From contig JAJUIB010000006.1 in assembly GCA_029265615.1 (NCBI GenBank), forward strand, positions 1 to 64,000: a stretch of 64,000 nucleotides of DNA, in the 5' to 3' direction. The DNA is from Spirochaetota bacterium (lineage in GTDB: Bacteria; Spirochaetota; Spirochaetia; Treponematales; Rectinemataceae). A program made the translations under genes and the position numbers. The notes below the pieces were generated by a model. It was not told where the DNA came from and searched no databases. It worked only from the letters and a program-made list of their open reading frames with translations. Shown in pieces: positions 3,404 through 40,233 of this stretch (position 1 is its first letter; each line of letters opens with the position of its first letter).

Positions 3404-5272
3404 TTAGGCCTGCCGCGAGATGCGTAGCAGAGTCACCATGAGGAGCGCCGCGTCGGCCTTGCGGAGGCCGCTCACCCTCGAGGCCTGTCCGAGCGTAAGC
3501 GGCCTTACCGCGGAGAGCTTTTCCCGCCCCTCGGCGGAAAGGCCGGGGACTGAGCGGTAGTCAAAATCCTCGGGGATGCGAAGCCCTTCCGAGCGCTCGA
3601 AACGTCCTGCAAGGCGCTCCTCTTTTTCTTCGTAACCTGAGTAGCGCGCGTCGAGCCAGGCGGTCTCAAGGACATCACGCGAAAATCCTTGGGCTTCGCT
3701 ACCGACGAGGGCGGCAAAACCCTCCGCGCCCTCAAGTCCGGCGGCGACGCGGGGGTCGCGGAGCGCCGCGGCTAGGGGCTCGCCGACATGCGGCGCAAGA
3801 ACAGGATCGCGCAACGCGTCGGTGCGGCTCACCCTGCGCGCGCAAAGGAGAGCAGCGGCCTCCTCGATAGCAGCAGCCCGCGCGACAAACCTCGACCAGC
3901 GCGCGTCGTCGACAAGCCCGACGTCGCGGCCGATCGGCGTGAGTCGCCTGTCGGCGGTGTCGCAGCGGAGCGCGAGCCTGCGCTCCGCGCGGCTTGTGAA
4001 CATGCGGTAGGGCTCCTTTGTCCCCAGCGTCGTAAGGTCGTCGACAAGGACACCGATATACGAATCGGCGCGGGAAAGAAGGACGGGCGGTTCGTTCGCA
4101 AGAAAGCGGGCGGCGTTGATACCGGCGAGAATACCCTGCGCCGCGGCCTCCTCGTATCCCGAAGTGCCGTTTGTCTGCCCCGCGACAAAAAAACCCGCAA
4201 GGCGCTTCGACTCGAGCGAGGCCTTGAGCCCCTGCGGATCGAGGTAGTCGTACTCGACCGCATAGCCAGGGCGTATGAGTTCCGCCTCTTCAAGACCGCG
4301 CATCGTGTGGATAAACCGAGCCTGCACATCCTCGGGGAGCGAGGAGGAAAGTCCGTTGAGATAGAGCTCGTCGGTGTATTCGCCCTCAGGCTCGACGAAA
4401 ATCTGGTGCCGCTCGCGATCGGGAAAGCGCACAACCTTGTCTTCGATCGAGGGACAGTAGCGGGGGCCACGGCCCACAATGGCCCCCCCAAAGAGCGGTG
4501 AAGAACCCAGGTTCTCGCGGATGACGCGATGCGTCTCTGCGTTAGTATAGGTAACCCAGCAGGAAATCGAGGGACGGTCGACCAAAACGCCCGAGAATGA
4601 AAACGACTCAGGCGGTTCGCCGCGCTCCTCCTCCATCGCACTAAAGTCCACAGAACGCGCGGCGACACGCGCGGGCGTGCCGGTTTTGAGCCGCGCGACG
4701 GGGAATCCCCGCCGCGCAAGCGCCGTACCGAGCCCGACCGCCGCAGGCTCGCCGAGTCGGCCGCCCGAAGCGCTCCAGGAGCCGATGAACAGCCGCCCCT
4801 CCATGAACGTACCCGCCGCGAGGACGACAACCCGCGCGCCGATGCGCGCGCCGCGCGCTGTCACGACGCCCTCAACGCGCGCATCGCGCCCATCTGTAAT
4901 GAGGTCGACGACGGTGTCCATGCGAAGCGAAAGACCCGTCTGCGACTCGACAGCACGGCGCGCCAAATTCGCATACCGCGCCTTGTCGGCTTGTGCCCGG
5001 GGCGCCCGTACCGCAGGCCCCCGCGAGCGGTTGAGCACGCGGTACTGGATCATGGAGGCATCGATGAGGCGTCCCATCTCGCCTCCCAGGGCGTCGACCT
5101 CGCGGACGAGATTGCCCTTCGCAAGCCCACCGATCGCGGGGTTGCACGACATGCGGCCTATGGTCTCAGGATCCTGAGTGATGAGGAGCGTGCGTCGCCC
5201 GAGCCTTGCAAGGGCGAGCGCGGCCTCGATGCCCGCATGCCCGCCACCCACAACGATTGCCTCGTAGTCCAT
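3404..5272 (-). CDS. mnmG: tRNA uridine-5-carboxymethylaminomethyl modification enzyme MnmG (GidA)
   Basis: FAD-dependent subunit of the MnmE-MnmG complex that installs the cmnm5 group on U34 of certain tRNAs. The N-terminal Rossmann dinucleotide motif is GGGHAG at residues 9-14 of a 622-residue protein, close to the usual length of about 620-630. The MSCNPAIGG motif and family-typical helical C-terminus are present. The frame extends to 5296, but ATG 5272 gives the canonical N-terminus and leaves an eight-base gap after mnmE, so the two are one operon. The convergent upstream gene ends 16 bases away. Confidence 0.97.
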
Positions 5273-34814: not shown

Positions 34815-35366
34815 ATGAGCAATAATGATATCGGTCCCGGCTTCGACGACGAAAAGGATGACAGCCTCAAGATCCGTCTCCAGAAAGTCGACGCCGTGGA
34901 CAACTGCCTCACGCTCTTTCTAACCGGCTATATCGACACTTACAACTCGAATTTCTTCCAGAAGCGTATCGGCAAGGCGATCGAATCAGGCTATATCCGA
35001 CTCATTTTCAACTGCGGTGGACTCAACTATGTCTCCTCGACCGGCATCGGCTCGTTCACCGCGTTTCTCAAATCCGTCAAACCACGCGGCGGCGACATCG
35101 TCCTCCTTGAGATACAGCCCAAGGTGTACGAGGTCTTTCAGCTCCTCGGCTTTTCGCAGTTTTTCAACATCAAAGACAACCTTGACGAGGCCATGAGCTT
35201 CTTCAAACAGGGGGATCAGGGCGCCGCAGCCTCGGTTTTCCCGAAGATATTCTCCTGCCCGATCTGCAACAAAAAACTCAAAGCGGCCAAACCCGGCCGT
35301 TTCCGCTGCTCCGAGTGCAAGACGATCCTCGCCATCGACAACGCGGGGCAGGTCTTCCTCGGCTGA
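34815..35366 (+). CDS. STAS-domain anti-sigma-factor antagonist with C-terminal zinc ribbon
   Basis: 183 residues. The STAS fold covers about 18-130 (TLFLTGYIDTYN, LIFNCGGLNYVSSTGIGS). S75 sits where SpoIIAA-type proteins are phosphorylated, preceded by Ser rather than the usual Asp. Residues about 148-175 form a four-cysteine zinc ribbon (CPIC..CSEC), an unusual fusion. Partner switching with an anti-sigma kinase is the family role; the receiver/PP2C protein at 42655 could be its phosphatase. First gene of the operon. Confidence 0.88.
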   Translation: MSNNDIGPGFDDEKDDSLKIRLQKVDAVDNCLTLFLTGYIDTYNSNFFQKRIGKAIESGYIRLIFNCGGLNYVSSTGIGSFTAFLKSVKPRGGDIVLLEIQPKVYEVFQLLGFSQFFNIKDNLDEAMSFFKQGDQGAAASVFPKIFSCPICNKKLKAAKPGRFRCSECKTILAIDNAGQVFLG

Positions 35367-35791: not shown

Positions 35792-36508
35792 ATGGGCATT
35801 TTCGAGCGCTTGAAAACGGTCATCTCGTCGAACATAAACGACCTCATCAGCAAGGCCGAGAACCCCGAAAAGATGCTCAACCAGCTCGTCATCGACATGA
35901 ACGAGCAGATGATCGAATCCAAAAAGGCCGTCGCGATGGCCATTGCGGATGAGAAAAAGCTCGAGCGAGAGACGCTCGAAAACAAACGCCAGGCCGAAGA
36001 GTGGGAGAAAAAGGCAATGCTCGCCGTGCGGGCCGGCCGTGACGACCTTGCAAAAGAGGCGCTCCTCCGCAAACAGGAATACGAACGATACGCCACCCAG
36101 CTCCATACACAGTGGCAGGCGCAAAAGGAGTCCGTCGAAAAGCTCAAAGAGAGCCTCCGTCAGCTCCAGAACAAGATCGACGAGGCCTCGCGCAAAAAGA
36201 ACATCCTCATAGCGCGCGCCAAGCGCGCCGAGGCCCAGGACAAGATCAACAAGACCATGTCGAGCCTTTCCGGCAACAAAAGCGCCTTCGACACCTTCGA
36301 GCGCATGGCGAAAAAGGTGGACGAGATCGAAGCGCGGGCCGAGGCGCACAAGGAGCTTGAGGATCTCTCCTCAGGTGCGAGCCTCGAAAAACAGTTCGCG
36401 CAGCTCGAATCCTCGGGTGCGGGCGCGGATCTCCTCCTTGCCGAGCTCAAGGCAAAAATGCTCACCGACAACGCCGGACAAGGCGGCTCCGGCCAATCCA
36501 CGCCCTGA
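35792..36508 (+). CDS. pspA: PspA/IM30-family membrane-stress protein
   Basis: 238 residues, almost wholly helical coiled coil. Canonical N-terminus GIFERLKTVISSNINDLISKAENPEKMLNQ, an amphipathic membrane-binding helix plus hairpin. ESCRT-III-like protein that coats and protects the inner membrane under stress. ATG 35792 has AGGAGG about nine bases upstream. The usual partners pspB, pspC and pspF are not adjacent; instead it is flanked by YbjN-like and winged-helix proteins. Confidence 0.95.
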   Translation: MGIFERLKTVISSNINDLISKAENPEKMLNQLVIDMNEQMIESKKAVAMAIADEKKLERETLENKRQAEEWEKKAMLAVRAGRDDLAKEALLRKQEYERYATQLHTQWQAQKESVEKLKESLRQLQNKIDEASRKKNILIARAKRAEAQDKINKTMSSLSGNKSAFDTFERMAKKVDEIEARAEAHKELEDLSSGASLEKQFAQLESSGAGADLLLAELKAKMLTDNAGQGGSGQSTP

Positions 36509-36536
36509 CCCCTGGCGGGCAGCATCCGGGCGGCCG

Positions 36537-37211
36537 ATGCTCGTCGCCTGCCTCGTAACCGAGGCTTCGCCCTATCGCTTGCTCGAAAGCGAGAGAGATC
36601 CTTCTGGATTTCTCTCGTTTTTATTTATCCTGCTTCCCGCCGCCGCGCCAGCGCGCTTTCCCCGGCATGTACGCGAGCTCGGGATGCCGCCCGACGCCGC
36701 GCTCTTCGTGCTCCCCGCAAGCCTCTACCTTGTCCTCGAAGAAAGGCCCGCACCCGCCTTCGTTTATGGCAATGATGCGCTTATCACCGCCGCATTCCGC
36801 TCAGGCTGCGCCGACTACCTCCGTGAACCATGGGGGCTCGTCGAAGTGTACGCGCGCGCCATCCGCCTCTTTGCGCCACGCTTCAGCCTCTGCGGCGCCG
36901 AGATCACGATGCAGGGCCGCGAGCTTGCCACCCGGCAAACCAGCGTCCGCCTCACCGAGGCCGAGATACGCATTCTCCGCACTCTCCTTGCCCATCGGGG
37001 GCGCTCTGTGAGCGCCGCCGCCCTCAATACCGCAGCCGGCGCCACAGCCAATCGGAGGCGGAGGCTCGGAAGCGGAGCGAATTCGCGTGTCTGTGCCGTG
37101 CATATTGCCAACCTCCGAAAGAAGCTTGAAAGCCTTGTACCCGGAGCTGGGGCCGCTCTTCTCTCTGCGCGCGGAGAAGGGTATCGCTTTGATGTTCAAA
37201 CCTGTGGATAA
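36537..37211 (+). CDS. OmpR-type winged-helix regulator with pseudo-receiver
   Basis: 224 residues. The C-terminal half (about 125-220) is a clear OmpR/PhoB winged helix: VRLTEAEIRILRTLLAHRGRSVS, VCAVHIANLRKKLE, LLSARGEGYRFD. The N-terminal half has receiver-like endings (FRSGCADYLREPWGLVEVYARAIRLF) but lacks the paired acids and the phospho-accepting Asp, so phosphorylation by a kinase is unlikely. 28 bases after pspA, hence a candidate regulator of this operon. The stop codon forms part of a DnaA-box match. Confidence 0.85.
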   Translation: MLVACLVTEASPYRLLESERDPSGFLSFLFILLPAAAPARFPRHVRELGMPPDAALFVLPASLYLVLEERPAPAFVYGNDALITAAFRSGCADYLREPWGLVEVYARAIRLFAPRFSLCGAEITMQGRELATRQTSVRLTEAEIRILRTLLAHRGRSVSAAALNTAAGATANRRRRLGSGANSRVCAVHIANLRKKLESLVPGAGAALLSARGEGYRFDVQTCG

Positions 37212-37477
37212 GTGGTGCATACCTGCGTGAAAAATCCACCGCGTCAAGCCCCTGAGCGGGGATTCACTGGACGACGGCGGGCTATGGCTGGGGATTAGGT
37301 GCGCATGAACCGGTGGGTAATTATCATAAATACATATAATAAAATAAATTATAATCGTCGTTAGAGGTCTTTGATATTTCAACCCTATTTACTCAGGCGG
37401 GACAAGTCCCTATGAAATTTGCCTTTTCCCCAAACAGCGCGCCTCGTGACTGTGGATAACTTGTGTAATTTTCCACA
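37203..37477. other. Origin-like AT-rich region with DnaA boxes
   Basis: The gap 37212-37561 holds no gene. It contains perfect TTATCCACA matches (as TGTGGATAA) at 37203-37211 and 37451-37459 and a TTTTCCACA match at 37469-37477. Between them is a 38-base tract of nearly pure A/T (about 37318-37355), exceptional in this GC-rich window, which could act as an unwinding element. A CCCC/GGGG hairpin lies near 37250. It may be oriC, a DnaA-titration/regulation site or a regulatory region; dnaA and dnaN are not adjacent. Confidence 0.5.
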
Positions 37478-37525
37478 ATTTCCTATGGTAGCAACGCATG
37501 TCACACTCGCGCTCCCTGCAAATCC

Positions 37526-37554
37526 TTGCGCCCCTCACGCGGAAGTGCTAGGAT
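37526..37554 (+). promoter_or_regulatory. Promoter of the six-helix membrane-protein operon
   Basis: TTGCGC (37526-37531), a 17-base spacer and TAGGAT (37549-37554). Seven bases separate it from ATG 37562; leaderless start predicted. Confidence 0.55.
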
Positions 37555-37561
37555 TTGCCCG

Positions 37562-38476
37562 ATGAAAGCCTGGCTCGGCGCGGCGGGTCGCCTCCTCTTT
37601 GACTATGCCCTGCTTTTGGCGCTTGCCGTGGCGCTCGAAGTAGGTGCCTCCGGTCTAAGCGGCCTGTTTGGCGCCCTCACCGCGGCCTTGCGGCTCTTCC
37701 CGCTTGCCATTGCGGCCGCGCTCATGCTCGGCGTCTTCTCATTCGAACGTCGGCTGAGGAGCAGAGTTCTCGGTTTTCTCAGCCTCGTCCTTCTCGGAAC
37801 CGGACTCTTCACCGGGGGGCTTGCGCTCAGGCGCGCGCTCGCCCCCCCGGAAGCGGCCGCCGAGCGCCCCCTCCCCACAGGCCTCGCCGTGGAATCAGGC
37901 GGTCTCATCTACTATGCCCGTTCTTATGAGCAAGTGGCCCAGGGGCGCGTCGCACGCGAGGCGATCGCCTACGATGCGCACGCCGCCTTTCCGCGCCTCG
38001 TCTATGCACACGAGGCGTCTCTTGTCGACGGCGGCGGGCTCGCCGTGGTGGAAGGCCGTCGCTATCCTGTCCGCGCACGCGCGGACACGGCGAGCCCGCT
38101 CATCCCTGCGCTCCCCGAGTTTTCCGTACACAGCCTTGCACAACGACTGGCCGCACTCGATGCGCTTCCTCTGTCCCTTGCCGCGGCGGGCGCCGCATGC
38201 TTTGCTCTCCTCGTCGTTGGCTTTTGCTCATTCGCGCGTTTTCCAGCTTGGCCCCTCTTCGGTCTTTTTGTCGGCGTGGCAGGCCTTGCCTGCGCTCTCA
38301 TCCTCGACGCCGCCCTCGCAGGTCCCGCGGTGGCGGCAGTGGGCGATTTCGCGTTACGCCGCCTTGGTCTGGGAGAACTTCCAGCCCCCCTCATCGCCGC
38401 CCTCTGTGAGGGCGCACTCGGCTTTCTCGTCGGCTTTGCAGGCCTCTTCGCACCGCGCAGGGGGAAGATCGCATGA
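37562..38476 (+). CDS. Membrane protein, 3+3 helices around a beta-rich domain
   Basis: 304 residues. Three hydrophobic helices (about 5-100), a soluble region (about 105-195) with strands GGLIYYARSY, AIAYDAHAAFPRLVYAHEASLVDGG, LAVVEGRRYPVRAR, then three more helices. This layout recalls LptF/LptG (YjgP/YjgQ), whose middle is a periplasmic jellyroll, but sequence similarity is only suggestive. No other family recognised. The next gene overlaps by four bases (ATGA). Confidence 0.75.
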   Translation: MKAWLGAAGRLLFDYALLLALAVALEVGASGLSGLFGALTAALRLFPLAIAAALMLGVFSFERRLRSRVLGFLSLVLLGTGLFTGGLALRRALAPPEAAAERPLPTGLAVESGGLIYYARSYEQVAQGRVAREAIAYDAHAAFPRLVYAHEASLVDGGGLAVVEGRRYPVRARADTASPLIPALPEFSVHSLAQRLAALDALPLSLAAAGAACFALLVVGFCSFARFPAWPLFGLFVGVAGLACALILDAALAGPAVAAVGDFALRRLGLGELPAPLIAALCEGALGFLVGFAGLFAPRRGKIA

Positions 38477-40233
38477 AAGCCGGCACACGTATCGTCGCCA
38501 CCCTCGTTGCAGTAAACAGTGTCGTCTTCGCGCTCCTCTTCGCCCTTGCGCTTGCGGGCTTCGCACCCGACCGCGTGATTCCGCGCTTTGCGCTCCGCTG
38601 GGAGCTCACCGAAGCACTCCTCGGCCTTGCCCGCTGGCTCCCGGCGACTCAGTTTTTCGCCATCGCGCTCGCGCTTGGCACCGCATCGGGCGATGGCGAC
38701 ACGCTGTTCCGCGCCGCGATGCCGCACGCGGCGATAAGCGCCATTTTTTTGTCTTCGATCGTACTCATCGCCGCGCCTGGCCTTGAAGCGACACGCTCGC
38801 GCGCGCTCGGCTTAAGCGAACGCTTCAATCGGAGCCTCGGCCTCGCACGCACAGCGCTTGAGCGGGGCGACCTGCAGACCGCACGCGCACTTGTCGACAC
38901 ACTCGAAGCGATCGACCGCAGAGATGAGCGCGTGGCCCGGCTCGACGAAAACCTCCGCGGCGCCGAGATCAAGACACATCGCAACGCCTCGTCGTCGTCC
39001 GCCATCTCCGCGACGCGCGCCGTTTCGGCGCAAGCAGCCGAGACGGTGCCGGACAAGGCCGCGGCGCGCCAGTACTACCTCAAGGCCCTCGACTTTTTCG
39101 CAAAGGGGGATTTTTTCAGCGCGCACTGGTACGCGTCGCGTGCGGCGCTCGTCGACACCTCAATCCCCGAGGCGAAACGCCTTGCCGCCAGGTCCTGGGA
39201 GGCCCTCACAGCGCGGGGGGGAGAGGTCGCGGATCCCGCGGCCGCACGGCTACAGCGCCGCAAACTTGAGGCCTACGGCCTCCTCCGCTCGGGCGACGCG
39301 ATTAGCGCCTTCCGCGAGTTTTCCGCCCTCGCGCGCGAGGCACCTGGCGACCTCGACGTGAAGCGCTACCTCGCCGAAAGCGAGCGTGACCTTGCGCAGG
39401 CGGCCTTTTTCAAGGACGAATCTGATAGGGCTGCGGCCGTAAGCCTGCCGCGATTCTTCGCCATCCTGCCCTCGGAGGACGGAGTCCTCCGCGCACTCGC
39501 GGCGGCTTCCGCGTCCTTCACCAGCGAGGCCGTCTACTTCACCGACTTCGAGTATCTTGAGGCAACGCCCCTTGCCTCGGGAGAAGGCCGCACGCGCAAG
39601 ATCGCCGCACCCTACGCCAAACTCATCGAAAGGCGCGCGCTCCTCGTCGCCGTCGAGCGCGCACGGCCTGAGACCGTTTATCGCGCGCTAGACTCCACAA
39701 CGCAGGACGGCCATGCGCCGACATGGGTAGAACTCCCCCTCGACCCGGAGACCGCCTATCGCGTTGCCGCCGCCCACCGCGCCCCCGCGGCGCTCGGTGT
39801 CCTCGACGCCTATGCTGCCGCCGCTGAAGCGCCTCGCTACGGACTCGACCCAGGGCCGATCCAACGAGACCTCCTTGCGCGTCTCGGCCTCCCCTTCGCA
39901 CTTCTCTCCGCCTCGGCGATTGGTATACTGCTCGGGATACGCTTCCGCGCCCCCGGCGCCGGGGCACGCCATTCATGGATCAGCCTGCCCTTCATGGCCG
40001 CGACAACCGCGGCCGTCTTCGCCGGGCTCGCGCAGGCCGATGACGCAGTTTCCGCCCTCGCGCTCCGCCTTGCACCCTGGCCAGCCGCACTCGGTGCCGC
40101 CGCGGGGATCAAAGCAGCGACACTCCTTGCCGCCGTGCTGATCGCCACTGGTTTCCGCGAAGAGCGTGCTGGATTTGTGCCGCAGCACCAGGGTGCGGGA
40201 TCGAGCACACAGGACGATGCATACGAGGACTAG
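38473..40233 (+). CDS. Membrane protein, 3+3 helices with helical-repeat insert
   Basis: 586 residues. Three N-terminal helices (about 5-110), a long soluble region with TPR-like helical pairs (about 115-320; ALERGDLQTARALVDTLEAIDRRD, LKALDFFAKGDFFSAHWYASRAALVD), a beta-like segment (VYFTDFEYLEAT) and three C-terminal helices (about 470-570). Same 3+3 plan as its partner, enlarged by the repeats. Function unknown; they look like two subunits of one membrane complex. Overlaps the J-domain gene by 17 bases. Confidence 0.78.
   Translation: MKAGTRIVATLVAVNSVVFALLFALALAGFAPDRVIPRFALRWELTEALLGLARWLPATQFFAIALALGTASGDGDTLFRAAMPHAAISAIFLSSIVLIAAPGLEATRSRALGLSERFNRSLGLARTALERGDLQTARALVDTLEAIDRRDERVARLDENLRGAEIKTHRNASSSSAISATRAVSAQAAETVPDKAAARQYYLKALDFFAKGDFFSAHWYASRAALVDTSIPEAKRLAARSWEALTARGGEVADPAAARLQRRKLEAYGLLRSGDAISAFREFSALAREAPGDLDVKRYLAESERDLAQAAFFKDESDRAAAVSLPRFFAILPSEDGVLRALAAASASFTSEAVYFTDFEYLEATPLASGEGRTRKIAAPYAKLIERRALLVAVERARPETVYRALDSTTQDGHAPTWVELPLDPETAYRVAAAHRAPAALGVLDAYAAAAEAPRYGLDPGPIQRDLLARLGLPFALLSASAIGILLGIRFRAPGAGARHSWISLPFMAATTAAVFAGLAQADDAVSALALRLAPWPAALGAAAGIKAATLLAAVLIATGFREERAGFVPQHQGAGSSTQDDAYED

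Follow-up and report, generated by a model that had tools for sequence, protein, structure and literature searches.

A putative DnaA control site outside the replication origin, with helically phased box spacing, in Spirochaetales

The locus and its neighbouring genes

The window, i.e., the whole stretch of 64,000 nucleotides that was analyzed, contains a three-part module in which two arrays of DnaA boxes enclose a central AT-rich dyad. The module and the genes around it are listed in Table 1, where X and Y denote the two genes that follow it.

Table 1. Features of the module and its gene neighbourhood (window positions).
Feature	Position	Strand	Remarks
STAS-domain protein	34815..35366	+	synteny anchor; STAS E 9.9e-22
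PspA/IM30 protein	35795..36508	+	in conserved neighbourhood; E 3.2e-56
Upstream ORF, OmpR/PhoB-type winged-helix (Trans_reg_C)	36357..37211	+	Pfam E 7.6e-10; start uncertain (~36.5 kb)
Entire module (DnaA arrays A and B with the AT dyad between them)	37203..37465		248 bp between box starts
DnaA box A, perfect TTATCCACA	37203..37211	-	overlaps stop codon of upstream ORF
Central AT-rich motif M, consensus TTATAATTCCTTATAATATAAAGAATTA, here TCATAAATACATATAATAAAATAAATTA	37324..37351	+	121 bp to box A, 127 bp to box B
DnaA box B with extension, reads TGTGGATAACTTGTG on + strand	37451..37465	-	strong box and start of weak box 11 bp on
TTTTCCACA near-box	37469..37477	+	present here, absent from relatives
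Gene X, conserved membrane-type protein downstream of module	37562..38476	+	orthologues in 11/39 genomes searched, own included
Gene Y, second conserved protein, after X	38473..40233	+	conserved, family-less

A preliminary description of this DNA had listed two perfect boxes (at 37203 and 37451), a TTTTCCACA match at 37469 and an AT-rich tract, and all of these are present. Box B itself is a perfect TTATCCACA (37451-37459, minus strand), and the arrays are 11-bp tandems, in which each strong box is accompanied by a weaker partner 11 bp further on. The 15-mer TGTGGATAACTTGTG occurs exactly three times in the 2.7-Mb genome: one copy is at this locus, and the other two lie upstream of dnaA. The reversed control gave 0 matches. 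The looser pattern TTWTNCACA was found six times in the window versus 0.66 expected from shuffled sequences, and none of 100 shuffles reached six. The tract between 37318 and 37355 contains 36 A+T in 38 positions, and no other 38-mer of the window is as AT-rich (the runner-up has 31 of 38); AT excess is highest in the middle of the module. The region had also been described as gene-free. This holds in part, but the box at 37203-37211 forms the final codons, TGT-GGA-TAA (Cys-Gly-stop), of the open reading frame with the Trans_reg_C domain that ends at 37211. Since the TTTTCCACA sequence at 37469 was found in no relative that was aligned, it is probably incidental. An Rfam scan of the window returned no RNA matches. 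A third perfect TTATCCACA box, also reported before, lies inside mnmG (4306-4314, minus strand), where it stands singly, without a nearby partner box.

The usual order of the slot, STAS-CesT-PspA-(regulator)-module-X-Y, is syntenic across Spirochaetales. Genes X and Y (37562-40233), for which no Pfam or NCBIfam match was obtained, are conserved across the order beside the PspA and STAS genes. The composition of both flanks varies. At loci L050, L051, L068 and L131 the regulator gene is absent and the module is kept; in genome G056 another gene (PfkB-like by eye) takes the place of the regulator, and the module is again kept. Downstream of the module, X and Y are replaced by convergent genes at loci L016 and L075 (HAD and prs-like genes) and at loci L112, L117 and L080 (a small conserved gene followed by a sigma-factor-like gene), all of which retain the module. 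At locus L069 an ABC gene lies further off and the pair of boxes is kept.

Conservation and geometry of the module

We compared the regions upstream of gene X orthologues in 10 genomes, the own one included, from nine genera of the first set of relatives. A pair of boxes in the same orientation was present in all of them, with the boxes 245-248 bp apart in every case except one (233 bp). Box A could be aligned in 10 of the 10 orthologous loci and is perfect in eight, with TGTGCATAA in the remaining two. The sequence between the paired boxes is barely alignable at these 10 loci.

When loci of Spirochaetales were collected in named genomes with the STAS gene as anchor, the pair was detected in 46 of the 72 anchored loci with enough sequence; shuffles gave an expectation of 0.0, and of the 55 control stretches taken upstream of the anchor, 0 had a pair. 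A scan that ignored gene context was run on 294 genomes of the order (most of the genomes compared in this work being MAGs). Pairs with a spacing of 195-225 bp turned up in 87 genomes and those with a spacing of 226-256 bp in 38, with one match of the control in each range (a reversed control in the former); these counts mix the site described here and the dnaA region. In the own genome, the only two TGTGGATAA pairs of such spacing are located upstream of dnaA (223 bp) and at the locus under study (248 bp). A chance origin of the boxes is ruled out by this conservation together with the controls (shuffles, reversed patterns and control stretches).

The pair is missing from the slot in part of the order. 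No pair was found at this slot in G026, G029 and G034, which by inference belong to Treponema sensu stricto, nor at the anchored slot in many termite-gut MAGs, so the module is predicted to be dispensable or diverged in these groups. At locus L103 the pair in the same slot is oriented the other way round, with boxes approximately 1171 and 1384 bases downstream of the STAS gene (213 bp apart), and this pair looks like an inverted module. In the closed genomes G026 and G029 a pair 205 bp apart is found between the MGMT and dciA genes (L160, 3977-4190, and L161, 3804-4017, respectively), and a perfect parS lies between its boxes. The GC skew of G026 flips near 2.49 Mb, which is close to the MGMT-dciA pair, with dnaA about 275 kb away; the origin of this genome thus seems to have become separated from dnaA. 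The MGMT-dciA pair was considered as a relocated module and the idea was dropped because the parS and the nearby skew minimum make it more likely that this pair marks the origin of these two genomes.

A 28-bp motif, M, was found between the boxes de novo by EM, with a log-likelihood of 318 versus approximately 91 for shuffled sequences. The motif is a dyad with half-sites TAATTC and GAATTA, and its copy at 37324-37351 has the top score in the whole window on both strands. As can be seen from the distances between boxes at gene X loci, the spacings are not spread evenly and cluster at 199-203, 210-216, 221-224, 232-234 and 245-248 bp. Order-wide spacings show similar peaks, near 200, 213, 222, 233 and 246 bp, separated by troughs at 217-220, 230-232 and 240-243 bp. 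On a tree of STAS and PspA proteins, the spacing classes changed at least 13 times, and it follows that the steps in spacing recur independently.

The same stepping is seen on each side of the central motif. Distances from box A to M fall into the classes 85-86, 95-98, 106-108 and 117-121 bp, with one outlier, and those from M to box B into the classes 104-107, 114-118 and 125-128 bp, again with one outlier. Thus, both arms change between lineages by steps of about 11 bp, i.e., about one helical turn. The Rayleigh R was 0.78 for the A-M arm and 0.83 for the M-B arm versus approximately 0.32 expected for an even spread. Since related rows make the all-row p-values too small, we rely on the more cautious test with unique distance values only, which gives p values of about 0.02 for both arms.

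About half of the X loci (e.g., L047, L131, L069 and L066) have an additional dyad, TGTATA-N6-TGTATACA, located 39-51 bp beyond box A, which is perhaps the site of a partner protein. This dyad was rejected as a universal part of the module, the own copy being without it.

The origin region and the likeness to the dnaA-upstream module

The preliminary description had offered two readings of the locus, oriC or a DnaA-dependent control site, and had remarked that dnaA, dnaN and gyrB are not adjacent. These genes are indeed absent beside the locus; they are, however, adjacent to one another elsewhere. The draft genome (2.70 Mb, 47 contigs) contains a single dnaA, which is located on contig C37, preceded by a gyrB-like gene and followed by dnaN; these two neighbours were named by reading of the sequence. 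Two perfect boxes 223 bp apart are located upstream of this dnaA, and the dnaA-dnaN gap holds three boxes or near-boxes and an AT-rich stretch. The origin region of the genome is also marked by two parS-like sites (G000:C37:27048-27259), at a distance of 5 kb from dnaA.

GC skew agrees with this placement. On C37 it is between -0.06 and -0.12 to the left of 28 kb and between +0.03 and +0.06 from there across dnaA. On C32, no flip was seen at 37.2 kb, the skew being negative on either side of the locus. In the closed relative G033 (3,239,340 bp), which was sampled in 20-kb stretches, skew values were positive between dnaA and 1.6 Mb, and from 1.75 Mb onwards, up to the return to dnaA, they were negative. 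The orthologous pair of G033 lies at 260 kb, that is, 260 kb from dnaA, and no skew switch was observed there, the arm between 0 and 260 kb being normal. The locus does combine DnaA boxes with an adjoining AT-rich segment of the kind that unwinds at origins, which is the evidence in favour of oriC. Against it, the skew minimum is at the site neither on the own contigs nor in G033, and dnaA, gyrB, dnaN, parS and the skew flip are all found on C37, with the closed relative in agreement. We therefore reject oriC at 37203-37561 and regard this reading, which the skew check suggested in the preliminary description has now contradicted, as extremely improbable.

The slot occupies a similar position relative to the origin in different genomes. 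In the closed genomes where it could be located, it is separated from dnaA by 5.2% (G036), 8.0% (G033), 8.7% (G240) and 9.0% (G056) of the chromosome; the module was seen in three of these four, and the distance to the origin is conserved as far as four genomes only can tell. At the G240 slot a single perfect box was found, 1.3 kb after the STAS gene and near the end of the stretch examined.

The region upstream of dnaA (gyrB-dnaA intergenic region) in the same order resembles the locus in being a three-part module on a lattice of approximately 11 bp. Many of the pairs upstream of dnaA have motif M on this lattice, for instance with arm lengths of 97+116 bp in G036, 97+126 bp in G035 and 99+127 bp in G028. 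Three loci that were left out when motif M was built also fit, with scores of 16.8-17.9: the X locus of G056 (96+115), the dnaA region of G056 (85+115) and the dnaA region of G240 (98+116). Since the motif recurs on the same lattice at dnaA and the held-out loci fit it, the locus is, by its sequence organization, another copy of the module in the dnaA region. In the dnaA region of the own genome motif M is weak (score 2.1, under the shuffled 95% level), and for the majority of genomes in the family of the window, M scores higher at the locus than at dnaA, the motif model having been built from this site. The two copies differ in context: upstream of dnaA, box B is within the likely dnaA promoter, whereas here it is at an unrelated locus. 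In another spirochaete, Borrelia burgdorferi, DnaA binds the gyrB-dnaA region (PMC9879097).

Proposed role and comparison with known DnaA control sites

One can imagine that the module is a DnaA-controlled promoter of an X-Y-DnaJ operon, a switch copied from the dnaA promoter that would tie an envelope/stress operon to the level of DnaA. Array B lies approximately 110 bp before the start of gene X, a block CTTGCrg...TGCTA ahead of the gene X ATG is conserved, X and Y follow the module in most genomes, and at dnaA, array B falls between the TTGATA and TATATA elements of the likely dnaA promoter. The target gene downstream is not fixed, however: X and Y are replaced in several lineages, and the pair is kept between convergent genes without X at the L016/L075, L112/L117/L080 and L069 loci. 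Retention of the module where X-Y or the regulator is missing speaks against a simple promoter role, and we have demoted this reading to an unlikely one.

The presence of the same module in the dnaA region, the peak of AT excess at its middle and the 36/38 A+T tract are what one would expect of a second, conditional origin, an unwinding platform that is usually silent and is used when the main origin is blocked. Neither the own genome nor closed G033 shows a change of skew at the locus, though, and the dnaA-dnaN gap has three boxes and an AT tract of its own; such a role appears improbable. A site that organizes or segregates the chromosome, anchored by DnaA or a partner, seems slightly less probable still. 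Its origin-proximal position in four closed genomes and the TGTATA-N6-TGTATACA dyad of about half of the loci, to which another protein may bind, would suit this function, but parS is at the dnaA region with none here, and the own copy is without the TGTATAC dyad.

The other half of the preliminary description, a DnaA-dependent control site, appears strongly supported by the conserved boxes, their spacing and the AT motif. We propose, with a probability of about 0.6, that the locus is a conserved non-coding DnaA control site, a second copy of the dnaA-upstream module and not a replication origin. Under this proposal, DnaA would fill each of the arrays, and a bending protein, or an intrinsic bend, at the central dyad would fold the DNA. 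The two arrays would then meet on the same helical face, giving a compact DnaA complex that may hold, inactivate or recycle DnaA close to the origin, yet apart from it, in the manner of datA, DARS and DnaA-box clusters (DBCs). More tentatively, Spirochaetales may possess their own class of DnaA control element, in which a second dnaA-region module, kept in a fixed origin-near neighbourhood, forms a helix-locked three-point complex of two arrays and a bend; we consider this possible, at somewhat below even odds.

To our knowledge, DnaA control outside the origin is known in detail for few bacteria only (datA and DARS of E. coli, the clusters of B. subtilis). A DnaA control site deeply conserved in another phylum, its geometry readable from sequence alone, would mean that sites of this kind have arisen, or have persisted, far more widely. 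Looped DnaA complexes could be tested by comparing half-turn with full-turn insertions. With the module as a sequence signature, it may also become possible to locate the origin region together with its companion site in spirochaete genomes that are unassembled.

A search of the literature outside subscription papers returned no datA-like sites of spirochaetes. A conserved, non-coding cluster of DnaA boxes outside oriC, the hallmark of datA/DARS/DBC-type sites, is what was found here (46/72 loci versus 0/55 controls). There is a close likeness to E. coli datA, which is likewise non-coding and near oriC, has high-affinity boxes flanking a bend site, and depends for its function on DnaA boxes 2 and 3, on the intervening IHF site and on the spacing on either side (PMC4585315). 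The module here has the same succession of boxes, central motif and boxes, with both spacings constrained. The two differ in that datA contains five boxes and an IHF site, whereas the module consists of two direct-orientation arrays and an AT dyad without an obvious IHF consensus. E. coli DARS1 and DARS2 are non-coding as well and carry DnaA boxes at a distance from oriC, and DARS2 also has sites for IHF and Fis (PMC4585315), but their cores are made of three DnaA boxes, as opposed to two arrays some 200-250 bp apart; they are also far from oriC, at 17.5 and 64 min (PMC5295017), whereas the slot described here lies 5-9% of the chromosome from dnaA. By its layout the site is thus datA-like, and we file it neither as datA nor as DARS. 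The DBCs of Bacillus subtilis are DnaA-box sites outside the origin, and deletion of all six leads to early initiation (PMC5295017). In place of six clusters, the spirochaete genomes have, apart from the dnaA region, one module each, whose geometry is fixed and whose central motif is shared.
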